Assembly (NCBI GenBank): GCA_031289145.1 | Contig: JAITQA010000061.1 | Span: 1-41,286, forward strand | Length of the DNA stretch: 41,286 nucleotides | DNA from: Dysgonamonadaceae bacterium | Lineage (GTDB): Bacteria > Bacteroidota > Bacteroidia > Bacteroidales > Azobacteroidaceae | Direction of reading: 5' to 3' | Part shown: positions 6,569 through 11,990 of the stretch, one piece after another | How positions within the stretch are numbered: the first letter of the stretch is position 1 | Layout of the letters: each line of letters opens with the position of its first letter | Translations under genes and position numbers: made by a program | Notes under the pieces: model-generated | Databases searched by the model: none | What the model was told of the DNA's origin: nothing | Seen by the model: the letters and a program-made list of their open reading frames with translations, nothing else

Positions 6569-6784
6569 ATGAAACCCCGGTCAACCGGAAATTGCGGATC
6601 AAGCCCGCCATGGGTTGAACATCAGCCAAGAGGCGTTTTGCAGGCTATCGCTTTGGGTAAACCCGTCATTGCTACCGAAGCCTGCGGTTTGCCGGACGAT
6701 TTGCCATGGACGCCTGTGACGGCAGGTAAAGCGGAGGAACTGAAAGTGGAATTACAAAAATTAGCCGGCTGTTTGAAGAACTAA
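6569..6784 (+). pseudogene. 3' remnant of a group 1 glycosyltransferase
   Basis: A 71-codon frame whose middle (GVLQAIALGKPVIATEACGL) reads like the nucleotide-sugar-binding helix of GT4 glycosyltransferases, where a conserved E/Q is followed by A-x-GKPVIAT. The preceding residues (SSPPWVEHQPR) are not family-like, and nothing upstream in any frame extends it. The ~300-residue N-terminal part is missing. I read it as a decayed fragment left by an insertion or deletion next to the restriction-modification gene. It could be a short expressed protein, but no promoter or convincing start is visible. Confidence 0.5.
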
Positions 6785-6785
6785 A

Positions 6786-6941
6786 GCAGAGGTCAGGAAC
6801 TCTGAAGATAGTATTGCTATAGTTCGCAAGCAAGCAGAAAAATACGAGAATTTATTTCAGAAACAGGCGGAGAAAATAGAGCGAGCAAGGCGAATATACC
6901 TTTGGAATATATTTGTATCTTTGTACAATTTATTTTGCTGA
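6786..6941 (+). pseudogene. Charged coiled-coil reading-frame fragment without a start
   Basis: The frame from GCA 6786 to TGA 6939-6941 is open and encodes a charged, helical-looking stretch (VRKQAEKYENLFQKQAEKIE) followed by a hydrophobic tail (IYLWNIFVSLYNLFC). It is one frame off from the preceding glycosyltransferase fragment and has no start codon after the nearest upstream stop. I do not recognise the protein. The coherent heptad-like composition suggests a real 3' fragment. The hydrophobic tail overlaps the promoter of the next gene and may be chance coding. Confidence 0.3.
6908..6923 (+). promoter_or_regulatory. Tandem -7 elements for the type IIG restriction-modification gene
   Basis: Two exact TAnnTTTG matches abut each other: TATATTTG at 6908-6915 and TATCTTTG at 6916-6923. 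Either would give a leader of roughly 22-32 bases before ATG 6954. No TTTG lies at the ideal 19-base distance upstream. Confidence 0.5.
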
Positions 6942-6953
6942 AAAACAAGCTTT

Positions 6954-9900
6954 ATGCAATTCAATAGTAAGACACCGAAGCAATCATTAAGTCTCGCTTT
7001 TCTCAAACAAAAGCCCGATAGACAAGAAATTGAACTTTTTAAAAAAGAGTTTATTGCCTTGTTAAACAAAATCAATGAAAGGGAAACGGAAGAGTTTCAC
7101 AAAAACCTGATAACCGATTTTCTGAACTCAGTTTATTATAAAGATAAACAGTATATTAACACCAAAGGTCGCACGGATTTGGTCATTCACAATGAGAAAA
7201 ATCCGGATACTCCGGTCGGAGTGCTTATTGAAGTGAAAAGTCCTGTGAATAAGACCGAAATGGTCAACAAAGAGAATCTGAATGTCAAATCGTTTCAGGA
7301 GTTGGTACTGTATTATCTGCGGGAAAGAAAGACCGGAAAGAATTTTGAACTCCGCAACCTGATTGTTACCAATATTTACGAATGGTTTGTGTTTGACGCA
7401 CAGGATTTTGAAAAATTGTTTTATCAAGACAACAAATTACTCAAACATTTCGAGGAATTTCAAGCAAAAAAACTGGCAGGGAAGGAAACCGATTTTTTCT
7501 ATAAAGAAATTGCATCGCCCGTAATTGCAAAAATCCAATCCGAAATACCTTATACTCATTTCGATATTCGCGATTATGATAAAATTCTCCGCAATGCCGA
7601 TAAAGAGGACGACAGAAAATTGATAGCGCTATACAAATTTCTCTCGCCTGTTCATTTGCTGAAACAGCCTTTTTCCAACGACAGTAACCAATTGAACAAA
7701 GAATTTTATACCGAATTACTGCACATTCTCGGTCTGGAAGAGATAAAACAAGACAACAGGAAACTGATTGTCCGTAAAAAAGAAAAAGAACGCGACGGCG
7801 GCTCAATTATCGAAAATGCGATTGAACGGATTGAAGTCAAAAGCAAATTGGACAATCTTCATGCAAGTCAATATGGCGATACAAAAGAGGAACAGTTGTT
7901 TGGGGTGGCATTGGATTTGGCGATTACGTGGATTAATCGTGTTTTGTTTCTGAAGTTATTGGAATCGCAAATTGTTAAATATCACAATGGCAATAAGGAA
8001 TATGCTTTCCTGTCGCCCGAAAAACTAAAGGATTATAATGATTTGGACAGCCTCTTTTTTTCGGTTTTAGCGCTCAAAGAGGACGAAAGAAAAGAGGGGG
8101 TGAAAGCCAAATTTGCACATGTTCCTTATCTTAACAGTTCGCTGTTTGAAATAACCGGAATGGAAGACAAAACGATATGTATCGATAGTTTGCAAGATAA
8201 TATCCCGATGGCATTGTATTCCAAATCGGTATTGTTTACCCGTAGAGACAAGGCATGCCTTGTCTCTACAATGCGCCCCTTGGAATATCTGCTGCGCTTT
8301 TTGGACGCCTACGATTTCAGCAGCGAGGGTATGGAAGATATTCAGGAAGAAAATAAATCGCTCATATCTTCTTCTGTATTGGGACTTATATTTGAAAAAA
8401 TCAATGGTTACAAAGACGGTTCGTTCTTTACGCCGTGTTTCATCACCATGTATATGTGTCGTGAAACAATTTTGCAGACCGTGATTCAAAAATTCAATGA
8501 ATATAAAACATGGAACTGTCAATCTATTAACGATTTGTACAACAAAATAGAGGACATTGGCGAAGCGAATCAGATTTTCAATACCATTCGTATCTGCGAC
8601 CCGGCTGTGGGTTCGGGACATTTTTTGGTGTCGGCGCTCAACGAAATGATACGCATAAAATCGGAGTTAGGAATTTTGACGGATAAATCGGGAAAAAGGT
8701 TGAAAGACTGTCGAATCATCATTGAAAATGACGAACTGATTGTGACCGACCGGGAAGGAAATTTTTTCAGTTACAATCCGAAAGACCGGGAGAGTCAGCG
8801 GGTACAGGAAACGCTTTTTCATGAAAAACAAACCATCATCGAAAATTGCCTTTTCGGTGTGGATATAAATCCCAATTCAGTGAAAATATGCCAATTGCGT
8901 TTGTGGATTGAATTGTTGAAAAATGCGTACTATATCAATTACGAATTACCAATTACCAATTACGAAAAAAACAGGCAATTGCAAACGCTGCCCAATATTG
9001 ATATAAACATAAAGTGCGGCAATTCGCTGATTAGCCGCTTTGACCTTTACGGCAATTATGCCGCTTTGCCGCATGCGGTACAACAAAAACTGAGGCTTGC
9101 TACGCGACAGTATAAAGACCAGGTAATCCTTTACAAATGTATGAACGATAAGGCAACCAAAAAGTTGACCCGTGAGCGTATCAGCCAAATTAAGGAAACT
9201 TTTTGCCATATCAATAACCCTGCCGATGCGGATTACCGAAAATGGGAAGAAGCAAAAAATAAAGCCACTACACATTTCACGTCCTTGCGTTTCGATGAAG
9301 ACAAAGCGGTGTGGAACAATCAACTCGAACAATTACAGGCGGATGAAACCCGTTTGCGCGAAAAGTATGAGCAAAAGATAAAAACGTTCTATGCCAATGC
9401 TTTTGAATGGAGTTTCGAGTTTCCCGAAGCGCTGGATGAAGACGGTAATTTTGTTGGCTTTGATGCGGTGATTGGGAATCCGCCGTATATGAGGGTTCAA
9501 ACTATAAGAGATTCATATCCTCAAATAGCTGACGGGTATGAAAAAATGTATAAATCGGCAACAGGTTCTTATGATATTTATGCCTTGTTTGTAGAAAAAA
9601 CAATGTCGCTAATAAAAGAAAATGGTTTAGTCAACTTTATTATGCCCGTGAAATGGACAAATGCAACTTTTGGAAAAGGTTTAAGGTCTGTATTGTCACA
9701 GAATAAAGCTATAAACAAGATTATAAATTTTGGTTCTTATCAGGTGTTTGATGCCTCAACTTATACCGGATTGCAATGGTTTCAAAAGAAAAGTAATATT
9801 CTTCGTTATTTAGAGTTGAATGAAGAGTTTAAGGCAAACGAGCAATTAGGAAAATATTTAAACTCTATAACAGATGATGATTTTCATAAGATACAAACAA

Positions 9901-10820
9901 ATACATTAACAGAATCAACTTGGACATTGTCCAATAGTGAAATAATGGCTATCCTGGGCAAGTTGAATAAACAACCGCGTCGGATTAGTGATATTTTTGA
10001 TAAAATATTTCAGGGTTTAGCAACGAGTAAAGATGATGTTTATTTTTTATACGATTGTAAAATTGAAGAAACGCATGTAACAGGGTATTCCAAACAATTA
10101 TCTGAATTTGTGAAAATTGAAAAGGGATTAGTCAAACCATTATTAAAAGGGGAAGATGTTCACCGTTACGAAACCATTACAACAGACAGAGTGGTTATTT
10201 TCCCATATAAAACAGAAAACGGCACAGCAGAATTGTATAAAGAAGAAGAAATCAAGGAAAAATTTCCATTAGGCTATTCCTATTTGAAGCAATGTGAAGG
10301 AGTTTTGAGGGGACGTGAAAAAGGGAGGTTTAATGTGGACGGAGAATGGTTTCAATATGGTAGAAAACAGGGAATTAGTTTTGCGGAAAAAGAAAAATTA
10401 GTTGCTCCAGAAATTTCGAAAGGTGGAAATTTCTCGTACGATAAAAACGGTCAATTTTATTCTACCACTAAAATTTATGGATACATTAAAAAAGACAATA
10501 CAATAAGTTATGAGTTTTTGTTAGGGTTGTTAAATTCTCAATTAATTTGGTTTTTTATACAAAATACAGGATATGTTTTGCGTGGTGGCTATTATACTTT
10601 CAAAACCAATTACATAGAACCATTCCCTGTGCCTGCAATTATCCCTTTAACTTTACATAATAATATTGAAGATTTAGTAAAGGAAATAATGAAAGATAAA
10701 TGCAAAAAATCTGATAATGAAACATTTGCAAAAGAAAAAGAAATTGACAATTTAGTATATTCTTTATATAATTTAAGTCAAGACGAAATAAATATAATCG
10801 ACACTTTTAATCATATATAA
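6954..10820 (+). CDS. Type IIG restriction-modification enzyme (nuclease + Eco57I-like adenine methylase + specificity domain)
   Basis: A single-chain enzyme of 1288 residues expected to methylate adenine in its own target and cut unmodified DNA nearby. N-terminal nuclease: GRTDLVIH (D75) and LIEVKS (E93-x-K95) form a PD-(D/E)xK site. A helical linker follows. The N6-adenine methylase has motif I DPAVGSGHF (from 549) and motif IV NPPY (842-845). From ~860 the TaqI/Eco57I-like specificity domain follows (FQGLATSKDDVYFL, KLVAPEISKGGNFSYD, IEPFPVPAI). Two repeat-derived inserts fall in surface loops: a 28-bp palindrome near residues 430-439 and a 7-bp tandem array near 662-671. Bases after ~9490 are visibly more A+T-rich than the first 2.5 kb, suggesting separate acquisition of the specificity part. 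Residues 1164-1172 are encoded by a 25-bp sequence repeated in inverted orientation downstream. Recognition sequence unknown. Confidence 0.93.
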   Translation: MQFNSKTPKQSLSLAFLKQKPDRQEIELFKKEFIALLNKINERETEEFHKNLITDFLNSVYYKDKQYINTKGRTDLVIHNEKNPDTPVGVLIEVKSPVNKTEMVNKENLNVKSFQELVLYYLRERKTGKNFELRNLIVTNIYEWFVFDAQDFEKLFYQDNKLLKHFEEFQAKKLAGKETDFFYKEIASPVIAKIQSEIPYTHFDIRDYDKILRNADKEDDRKLIALYKFLSPVHLLKQPFSNDSNQLNKEFYTELLHILGLEEIKQDNRKLIVRKKEKERDGGSIIENAIERIEVKSKLDNLHASQYGDTKEEQLFGVALDLAITWINRVLFLKLLESQIVKYHNGNKEYAFLSPEKLKDYNDLDSLFFSVLALKEDERKEGVKAKFAHVPYLNSSLFEITGMEDKTICIDSLQDNIPMALYSKSVLFTRRDKACLVSTMRPLEYLLRFLDAYDFSSEGMEDIQEENKSLISSSVLGLIFEKINGYKDGSFFTPCFITMYMCRETILQTVIQKFNEYKTWNCQSINDLYNKIEDIGEANQIFNTIRICDPAVGSGHFLVSALNEMIRIKSELGILTDKSGKRLKDCRIIIENDELIVTDREGNFFSYNPKDRESQRVQETLFHEKQTIIENCLFGVDINPNSVKICQLRLWIELLKNAYYINYELPITNYEKNRQLQTLPNIDINIKCGNSLISRFDLYGNYAALPHAVQQKLRLATRQYKDQVILYKCMNDKATKKLTRERISQIKETFCHINNPADADYRKWEEAKNKATTHFTSLRFDEDKAVWNNQLEQLQADETRLREKYEQKIKTFYANAFEWSFEFPEALDEDGNFVGFDAVIGNPPYMRVQTIRDSYPQIADGYEKMYKSATGSYDIYALFVEKTMSLIKENGLVNFIMPVKWTNATFGKGLRSVLSQNKAINKIINFGSYQVFDASTYTGLQWFQKKSNILRYLELNEEFKANEQLGKYLNSITDDDFHKIQTNTLTESTWTLSNSEIMAILGKLNKQPRRISDIFDKIFQGLATSKDDVYFLYDCKIEETHVTGYSKQLSEFVKIEKGLVKPLLKGEDVHRYETITTDRVVIFPYKTENGTAELYKEEEIKEKFPLGYSYLKQCEGVLRGREKGRFNVDGEWFQYGRKQGISFAEKEKLVAPEISKGGNFSYDKNGQFYSTTKIYGYIKKDNTISYEFLLGLLNSQLIWFFIQNTGYVLRGGYYTFKTNYIEPFPVPAIIPLTLHNNIEDLVKEIMKDKCKKSDNETFAKEKEIDNLVYSLYNLSQDEINIIDTFNHI
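8242..8269. repeat. 28-bp perfect palindrome inside the type IIG coding sequence
   Basis: The sequence reads the same on both strands, with outer arms GTAGAGACAAGG and centre CATG. It encodes the segment RRDKACLVST of the enzyme, in the linker between nuclease and methylase, just before LEYLLRFLDAYDF. The frame is kept. The sequence resembles palindromic elements with GTAGAGAC/GTCTCTAC ends that I recall as dispersed repeats in cyanobacteria and Bacteroidota; that link is from memory, not a search. Confidence 0.85.
8937..8964 (+). repeat. Four tandem 7-bp units inside the type IIG coding sequence
   Basis: Units in order: AATTACG, AATTACC, AATTACC, AATTACG. They encode NYELPITNYE between the methylase-domain segment LLKNAYY and the segment LQTLPNIDINIKCGNSL. 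Because the unit is not a multiple of three, gain or loss of one unit would shift the frame. The copies are few and imperfect, so slippage should be slow. Confidence 0.8.
10444..10468 (+). repeat. 25-bp inverted repeat, left copy (candidate inversion site)
   Basis: This 25-base sequence starts AAAACGGTCAATTT and ends TTCTACCAC. It is identical, in reverse orientation, to 11188-11212. It encodes NGQFYSTT (1165-1172) of the type IIG enzyme. Both copies start at the second base of a codon in their own reading frame, so exchange keeps the frame. The element has weak dyad ends (GGT...ACC around a 12-base centre), roughly the size of a serine-invertase site. Confidence 0.88.
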
Positions 10821-10841
10821 TTGAATATCAATAACATTTAA

Positions 10842-11321
10842 TTATTTGCATTTTTCTATTATTTTAATATCTTCATTAGATAAATCATACAAATCATATA
10901 CAATTTGATTGATATTCTTTTCCATATCAAAACAATTTGACAATAGATTTAATCTTTTCACTTCCATTATTTTATCAACTAATTCTACAAGAATATTTTC
11001 TGTGTTTTTAGGTATAGTTGGTATAGGAAATGAGTTTATATAATTTGGTTTAAATCTGAAATACCCATTAGCTAATGTTGTGCCTGTATTAGCCAAATAC
11101 CACCATAGTAAATTAGAATTTAGGAGAGCAATTAGGCATTTATAGCTTTCCGCTATCTCCGTTTTTTTGATATATCCGTAAATTGTGGTGGTAGAATAAA
11201 ATTGACCGTTTTGGTCGTAGGCGAAGTTCCCTCCACGGGAAATTTCAGGAGCTATAAGTTTTTCATTATCAAATAACAAAAGGTTTTTTGGGTAAATATA
11301 TTTATACCAAAAGCAGTCCAA
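10842..11321 (-). pseudogene. Silent inverted cassette: alternative C-terminal target-recognition segment
   Basis: This leftward frame encodes a second version of the type IIG C terminus. KLIAPEISRGGNFAYDQNG parallels KLVAPEISKGGNFSYDKNG of the active gene. YSTTTIYGYIKK, FRFKPNYINSFPIP and IVYDLYDLSNEDIKII also match their counterparts in order. The only in-frame start is TTG 11321; the frame is open further up to 11363, with no ATG and no recognisable promoter, so it is probably unexpressed as it stands. After the 25-bp repeat it supplies 114 residues, against 116 in the active gene. The stops of the two converging frames are 21 bases apart. I read it as a storage cassette brought into use by inversion, not as a dead gene. 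Confidence 0.85.
11188..11212 (-). repeat. 25-bp inverted repeat, right copy (candidate inversion site)
   Basis: Exact reverse complement of 10444-10468. It lies in the silent cassette at codons 37-45 counted from the TTG. Together the two copies bound a 769-bp segment containing both alternative C termini in opposite directions. Sequence around both copies is also similar, but with many third-position differences, so the perfect 25-base match stands out and suggests recent or recurring exchange. Confidence 0.88.
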
Positions 11322-11364
11322 AGTTAATCTCCTTTTATAAAAGCCTGAGTTTGATTTTTTAGGC

Positions 11365-11372
11365 TACTTTTG
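11365..11372 (+). promoter_or_regulatory. -7 promoter element for the serine recombinase
   Basis: TACTTTTG matches TAnnTTTG. The predicted start of transcription is only about six bases before the ATG at 11385, giving an almost leaderless mRNA. No TTTG lies 19 bases upstream. The element is outside the invertible segment, so expression would not depend on its orientation. Confidence 0.45.
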
Positions 11373-11384
11373 CATTAAAAAATC

Positions 11385-11990
11385 ATGACGTACGGTTATT
11401 TAAGAGTAAGTACAGATGAGCAAGATGCTCAAAATCAGACATTAGGTATAAAATCCAAAGCAGAACAATTGGGCGTTTCTGTTTCAACTTGGGTAGAAGA
11501 TAGTGGTATTTCAGGGACAAAAGAACCGGAAAACAGAAAACTTGGAATTATTCTTAAAGAAATGAAAGAAGGAGATATTATCATCGCTTCCGAATTATCG
11601 CGTTTGGGTAGAAAAACATTTATGGTAATGAGAATTTTGGAGCTTTGCATGAAGAATGGAGTGAAAGTCTATACCGTAAAAGACGGCTATGAACTGGGAG
11701 ATAATATACAAAGCAAAGTCCTTGCTTTTGCCTTTGGACTTGCCGCTGAAATTGAAAGAGATATGATTTCGCAACGTACAAAAGAAGCACTTGCCCGAAA
11801 AAAAGCAGAAGGTGTTATTCTGGGGCGTCCGAAAGGCAGTAAAGCTAAAAAAAACAAACTGACAGACCATAAACAACAAATTATAACTATGTTAAAAAAA
11901 GGCGTTTCACAAAATACAATAGCTCGCACATTAGGTGTTCATCGGCACACTGTAAATGCTTTTGTAAAAGAAAATCTTCAATTATTGTAA
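11385..11990 (+). CDS. Serine site-specific recombinase (resolvase/invertase family)
   Basis: A 201-residue small serine recombinase that would cut and rejoin DNA at short paired sites through a 5'-phosphoserine link. Residues 1-140 form the catalytic domain: YGYLRVSTDEQ with nucleophile S9, ASELSRLGR (the usual SRLxR motif) and the long E-helix region AEIERDMISQRTKEAL. Residues ~143-150 (ILGRPKGS) are the usual arm entering the minor groove. Residues ~155-197 (ITMLKKGVSQNTIARTLGVHRHTV) are a helix-turn-helix DNA-binding domain. Length matches DNA invertases such as Hin/Gin and Bacteroides Mpi, not large serine integrases. It lies 64 bases from the silent cassette, which makes inversion of the type IIG segment its likely job; it could also act elsewhere in the genome. 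Confidence 0.92.
   Translation: MTYGYLRVSTDEQDAQNQTLGIKSKAEQLGVSVSTWVEDSGISGTKEPENRKLGIILKEMKEGDIIIASELSRLGRKTFMVMRILELCMKNGVKVYTVKDGYELGDNIQSKVLAFAFGLAAEIERDMISQRTKEALARKKAEGVILGRPKGSKAKKNKLTDHKQQIITMLKKGVSQNTIARTLGVHRHTVNAFVKENLQLL

Follow-up and report, generated by a model that had tools for sequence, protein, structure and literature searches.

A probable invertible specificity end in a single-chain type IIG restriction-modification enzyme encoded beside an Mpi-type serine invertase

Type II restriction-modification is reportedly among the gene families predicted as inversion targets by Milman, Yelin and Kishony (NAR 2023), with an asymmetry between a gene and its partial copy. In Campylobacter jejuni, phase variation of a type IIG enzyme (Anjum 2016) is also said to alter methylation, by on/off switching at a homopolymer tract with no exchange of the target-recognition domain (TRD). 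For type I systems, specificity switching by inversion is already known: the passages of PMC3090145 on the HsdS locus BF1839-1842 of Bacteroides fragilis describe four sets of inverted repeats that rearrange TRDs to give eight possible specificities, an adjacent recombinase gene, and an HsdS that determines the specificity of the methylase and of the nuclease alike. In Helicobacter pylori type IIG systems with a separate S subunit, TRD sequences move between TRD1 and TRD2 by recombination at repeats, and in the relevant sections of PMC3077401 the authors leave it undecided whether this domain movement is site-specific or homologous recombination. Here we describe a locus in contig JAITQA010000061.1 of a Dysgonamonadaceae bacterium (assembly GCA_031289145.1; positions 1 to 41,286, hereafter the window) in which a single-chain type IIG gene faces an inverted second copy of its own specificity end, next to a gene for a serine invertase.

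The PADLOC model REase_MTase_IIG covers residues 13-1283 of the product of the rightward gene (E 1.5e-256), in which Pfam recognizes DUF7149, DUF7814, Eco57I and TaqI_C; judged by these model matches, nuclease, N6-adenine methylase and TRD lie in one chain, making this a type IIG enzyme, as the first-pass annotation of the window had proposed. The stretches DPAVGSGHF, NPPY and TDLVIH...IEVK are readable in its sequence and presumably have motif roles. The leftward frame consists of a TaqI_C specificity end only and aligns with the same enzyme from about residue 1122, which bears out its description as an alternative C terminus and rules out that it is part of another complete gene. It has no ATG at its beginning, its listed start being a TTG at 11321, and runs open from 11363 to a stop at 10842. 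The 25 identical bases reported at 10444-10468 and, inverted, at 11188-11212 were found again, each arm beginning with the second base of a codon in its frame; the 21 bases between the stops and the 173 bases from the right repeat to the recombinase open reading frame (ORF) are likewise correct, and the recombinase, predicted to be a serine recombinase, exceeds the NCBIfam cut-off for Mpi invertases by a narrow margin (274.8 vs 272 bits, NF009949). Flipping 10444-11212 keeps the frame, with a computed product of 1286 residues. A gene, an inverted partial copy, inverted repeats and a frame preserved after the flip, the marks of a programmed gene-altering inversion, are all present here. Two other identities for the enzyme were rejected: BREX PglX models score below their thresholds (85.1 vs 500, 74.9 vs 400 and 50.5 vs 900 bits), and a type I HsdS shufflon, which would have a separate HsdS gene alongside HsdM and HsdR, does not match a single chain with nuclease, methylase and TRD models, no HsdS model appearing among the best 25 of 41 PADLOC rows for it.

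It is quite probable, in our judgment, that programmed inversion by the adjacent Mpi-type invertase swaps the specificity end of this single-chain enzyme, most likely via nested sites. The invertase would recombine a site in the gene with its inverted counterpart in the silent, start-less copy lying tail to tail with the gene, and after the flip the same nuclease-methylase body would be fused to the other TRD end. Crossing over at the outer site (site 1, core GA) would invert 1007 bp and put 162 other residues in place of 1125-1288; at the inner site (site 2, core GT, within the 25-bp repeat) the exchange would be limited to the stretch surrounding and following the residues FYS, 757 bp from core to core. 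With two alleles for each of two modules, up to four enzymes could then result. We consider it probable that two site pairs, differing in their core dinucleotides, are nested here, and both are retained in the model because mixed combinations of the modules exist. The first-pass annotation had the 769 bp from repeat to repeat flip as a unit; the repeat stands, and the segment is probably neither the whole nor the only invertible unit. We infer that this invertase is the agent, that inversion takes place in living populations, and that the DNA motif changes with it. The features are listed in Table 1.

Table 1. Coordinates of the type IIG locus in the window (core dinucleotides set off by hyphens; dyads scored out of 12 against AAAACG-NN-CGTTTT)
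Feature	Position	Strand	Basis
Gene for the type IIG restriction-modification enzyme (1288 aa), whose specificity end is of class A1-A2 in this assembly	6954..10820	+	ORF list; Pfam DUF7149, DUF7814, Eco57I, TaqI_C; PADLOC PDLC03612 E 1.5e-256
Putative crossover site 1, active arm AAAAGG-GA-GGTTTA, core 10325-10326	10319..10332	+	Outer end of active/silent homology; Mpi-type dyad 9/12, 40/41273 window positions as good
Module 1, active allele A1, begins RFNVDGEWFQYGRKQG	10327..10449	+	Class comparison; aligned with CamA Q438/W439/R441
Crossover site 2, active arm, AAAACG-GT-CAATTT, core 10450-10451	10444..10468	+	25-bp exact repeat; dyad 10/12, 7/41273 window positions as good
Module 2, active allele A2	10452..10817	+	Class comparison
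21-base gap between two convergent stop codons	10821..10841	.	ORF list
Module 2, silent allele B2, including stop	10842..11204	-	Class comparison; TaqI_C
Crossover site 2, silent arm, core 11206-11205	11188..11212	-	Exact repeat; Mpi-type dyad scan
Module 1, silent allele B1, begins RLTLDCFWYKYIYPKN, mostly beyond the 769-bp segment	11207..11329	-	Class comparison; pN/pS
Putative crossover site 1, silent arm TAAAAG-GA-GATTAA, core 11331-11330	11324..11337	-	Homology boundary; dyad only 6/12, 3503/41273 positions as good
Mpi-family serine invertase, 201 aa	11385..11990	+	NCBIfam NF009949 274.8 bits (cut-off 272); Pfam Resolvase

Relatives were sought in samples that overlap one another (58 relatives; 395 genomes of the class, 393 of the order, 395 of the phylum and 38 of the genus) and in a genome-contig collection, in which 79 stretches matched and 7 loci were kept; 60 places were selected from the upper part of the class, order and phylum lists, not every match. 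The type IIG gene, an inverted C-terminal copy and an invertase stand side by side at six loci: the window and those we label G435, G171, G026, G137 and G089. For the association count, the window and L015-L086 gave 73 entries, or 71 once L026 (no full ORF) and L027 (a duplicate of L023) were removed, and 65 of these, the window among them, have at least 1.5 kb of sequence behind the gene. An invertase is present at all four of the 65 loci with an inverted copy (window, G435, G171 and G026) vs one of the 61 without; in that one, G004, the invertase is partial and we could find no copy, and the other 60 have neither. Starting instead from the invertase, 345 genomes of the class contain 10 places of close relatives in 9 genomes, window included, and at four of the 10 (window, G171, G137 and G089:C13) a type IIG gene with an inverted TRD is present. 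At G371:C1 (L108), a piece of type IIG TRD, 56% identical to residues 946-1119 of the G137 enzyme, is cut by the contig end 541 bases before the invertase; its frame matches that enzyme and gets no recognition from Pfam. At G276:C24 (L106) there is only a crossover-like site, the contig ending 115 bases before the invertase and 18 bases from an AAAAACG-CT core. A fragment of the layout is present at L026, from an uncultured Flavobacteriaceae. Draft assemblies may lose the layout because contigs can break at the crossover. No relative was found in viral contigs scanned with a single protein, and 23 phage and 130 plasmid records gave type IIG relatives below 60% identity only.

The six loci take two forms. 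About 160 residues, half of the TRD, are duplicated in the window, G435 and G171; in G026, G137 and G089 the entire TRD is, some 290-320 residues. In this full-TRD form the arms of G026 and G137 cease to be alike at an AAACG-CT core and those of G089 two bases beyond it, as expected of a serine recombinase with a 2-bp overlap. The G026 enzyme is 77-79% identical to that of the window over its first 830 residues and about 26% over the last 448, and the TRD has therefore been exchanged as a module between strains too. Both TRD copies of G026 (L017:4414-4709 and 6738-7012) carry an in-frame RHCGLDPQSP stretch, nearly identical in the two arms, which resembles an insertion of a repeat element into the coding sequence. 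The inverted TRD arms at G089:C13 (L110) include runs of 111, 96, 32, 29 and 29 identical bases distributed across the TRD, a pattern that suggests several crossover or conversion points.

A comparison of relatives for the flipped form turned up the opposite arrangement in G171. The segments behind FYS fall into two classes: class A, 58-62% alike, comprises the active ends of the window and G435 and the silent end of G171; class B, 50-54% alike, comprises the silent ends of the window and G435 and the active end of G171; between classes the likeness is 42-46%. Because class membership is reversed, G171 is flipped relative to the window and G435, and this includes the 42 residues between the sites. 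When modules 1 and 2 are classed separately, with more distant homologs left out, all four combinations occur among relatives: A1A2 in three copies; B1B2 in three copies as well as in L021, L023 and, weakly, L028; A1B2 in the active L022 and the silent L026; and B1A2 in the active L020. The class margins for module 1 are 18-33 points in L020, L022 and L026. Ratios of nonsynonymous to synonymous differences (pN/pS), which are rough because the synonymous differences are near saturation, are 0.25 (module 1) and 0.40 (module 2) between the silent copies of the window and G435, and 0.13 and 0.39 between the active copies. They indicate that the silent copies, module 1 included, are conserved to much the same degree as the active ones and have not simply drifted, and they fit alternating use.

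The 25-bp repeat is longer than codon choice between two related proteins explains. In simulations that preserved both proteins and drew their codons afresh according to the usage of the gene, exact aligned matches of at least 25 bases arose in 21 of 20,000 trials, the 26-bp arm of G435 was reached in 42 of 20,000 and the 20-bp arm of G171 in 79 of 20,000. The exact arms of all three loci lie around the same NG(Q/R/E)FYS codons; they agree within each locus and differ between loci (NGQFYS, NGRFYS and NGEFYS). In the window the exact run is nested in a 108-nt inverted match of 79% identity (10386-10493 and 11163-11270), and a 20-mer from it, allowing up to three mismatches, occurs nowhere else in the 3.94-Mb assembly than at these two places, a search that did not extend to looser sites across the genome. 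The Mpi repeat is given as ARACGTTCGTN in the part of PMC8375218 that treats it, and in our scan for this type of dyad the two arms of the 25-bp repeat are the best sites of the window locus. In G435 both arms of site 2 are perfect dyads (12/12), the best of their locus.

The two copies in the window remain homologous for about 40 codons (119 bp) beyond the repeat, to about 10325 and 11331, at GREKG-RFN, and copy homology begins at this site 1 in the window, G435, G171 and L026. The arms of G435 read AAAAGG-CA-GGTTTA and AAAACG-CA-GGTTAA (dyads 9 and 9 of 12), those of G171 AAAAGG-GA-GATTAA and AAAAGG-GA-GGTTTA (7 and 9); within each of the three loci the core dinucleotide is the same in both arms. 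The boundary of the 769-bp segment is doubtful because the extra 40 or so silent codons are conserved, share the allele class of the remainder and have moved along with it in G171. A contig of the same genus, G013, ends at the site 1 core, AAAAAGGGA. In L025 (5839-5880), a frame-damaged type IIG gene leaves the family sequence right after GAGAAAAAGGGA, the site 1 core, at the same base as G013.

Of the ways to explain these data with fewer elements, a single inverton at site 1 (1007 bp), with the identity at site 2 produced by gene conversion at a conserved motif, seems to us unlikely while deserving serious weight. The homology boundary, the class swap in G171 and the conserved silent module 1 all fit it, as do the G013 contig end exactly at AAAAGGGA and the departure of the L025 gene at the same base; but in the window and G435 it is site 2 that lies nearer the Mpi motif, and A1B2 and B1A2 combinations exist. 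The converse, a single inverton at the 25-bp repeat in which module 2 alone flips and silent module 1 is a remnant, is improbable: the repeat does provide the best Mpi-type dyad and the longest exact arms, separately homogenised in three loci, but silent module 1 is conserved (pN/pS 0.25), keeps its class and moved with module 2 in G171, and copy homology starts at site 1 in all three of these loci and in L026. We hold it more improbable still that switching is real and has homologous recombination, or some other cellular invertase, as its driver. Arms that are 79% alike over 108 nt could serve the former, and a second, partial relative of the invertase (57% identity) does lie elsewhere in the assembly (G000:C137:3318-3746), itself with an internal TAG; against both, an invertase accompanies the inverted copy at six loci, and three have crossover-like boundaries at an Mpi-type core. 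That the inverted copy is a decaying duplicate and the adjoining invertase incidental would account for a silent frame with no ATG start and is very improbable given the six-locus layout, the pN/pS ratios, the association of four of four vs one of 61 and the oppositely arranged ortholog.

The place of the proposed nested exchange in the fold of the enzyme was read from alignments made by HMMER with solved chains. The C terminus could be aligned to M.BseCI and to chain 8cxz, the latter identified as CamA by its length and by N165 and Y168 matching the published numbering; residue pairs were taken from the printed alignments and the window residues re-checked. In CamA, as the pertinent part of PMC8187626 reports, contacts to the first base pairs come from Q438, W439 and R441, those to later ones from S514, I517 and Y521. 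The first three residues align with Q1134, Y1135 and R1137 in module 1, where class A reads QYGR and class B IYPK; the last three align with R1210, Y1213 and K1217 in module 2, where class B has A at the position of R1210. S472 and A473 fall at S1170 and T1172, beside site 2, and R425 at K1112, outside the exchanged part. It is conceivable, as part of a two-tier reading, that the module border lies between residues aligned with the readers of the first and of the last base pairs; this we put forward tentatively. With similar reserve, falling somewhat short of an even chance, we propose a nested two-tier inverton within one domain (cores GA and GT here, CA and GT in G435), in which one invertase would swap either the entire C-terminal half of the TRD or its last part alone, and would thereby draw four specificities for a fused nuclease-methylase from a gene and a silent copy.

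Several observations weigh against inversion at nested sites by this invertase. The opposite arrangement was seen only in G171, from another family of the same class, and at four of the 10 places of close invertase relatives the 9-10 kb read contain no type IIG gene. In none of the three half-TRD loci do modules 1 and 2 come apart between the active and the silent copy, so that arm homogeneity and motif are the grounds for proposing that site 2 is used there; in G171 the site 2 arms score just 8/12 each, below other places of that locus. The module 2 class margins of L021, L022 and L023 are just 5-9 points, L020 and L022 have no detected inverted copy, and these last two recombinants could stem from ordinary recombination. 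The site 1 motif is weaker than that of site 2 in the window and G435, with 6/12 in the silent arm of the window, and on the active side it is partly constrained by coding, relatives that lack the inversion also having AAAAAGG there. Contig ends are weak, suggestive evidence only, because three other contigs of the genus (G015, G028 and G019) break elsewhere in this gene. Finally, the CamA mapping is a remote alignment (i-E 9.2e-10 for the active and 1.2e-4 for the silent end).

No further copy of the enzyme C terminus was found in the 3.94-Mb assembly. Upstream of the type IIG gene, at 6632-6784, a short frame GVLQAIALGKPVIATEACGLPDD...CLKN followed by a stop resembles, by eye, a severed glycosyltransferase tail.

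If inversion at this locus is as we propose, a compact two-gene unit would change the targets of cutting and methylation with no separate specificity subunit, and phage defence and epigenetic state would be affected together. The first-pass annotation rightly stressed this joint change, which is not special to the fused enzyme: type I HsdS sets both as well, according to the account of it in PMC3090145. The split below the level of the domain would be natural evidence on which halves of a TaqI_C-type TRD are exchangeable, useful for predicting or building type IIG specificities. Six genomes, all from a single class, share the layout. Among the matches listed from part of the literature, none describes, by its title or the start of its abstract, inversion inside a type IIG TRD, which is no claim of absence from print; nor do the passages on related systems describe a nested sub-TRD arrangement in a single-chain type IIG enzyme with a serine invertase, which cannot establish absence.

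Set beside the gene-altering inversions reported by Milman et al., the window locus would be one such case. The HsdS shufflon BF1839-1842, in the passages that describe it, has a separate S subunit and a tyrosine integrase, whereas here a single-chain enzyme is paired with a serine invertase; the H. pylori type IIG systems, as far as the relevant sections of their source go, share TRD movement at repeats, although there it takes place in a separate S subunit. The invertase itself is closest to Mpi/FinA of B. fragilis, which it resembles in its NCBIfam equivalog and in a crossover motif of the ARACG-NN-CGT type (PMC8375218, in the part concerned). Whereas Mpi in B. fragilis is the master invertase of many distant promoters, the 20-mer site here, with up to three mismatches allowed, forms a single pair in the assembly, and it lies in coding sequence.

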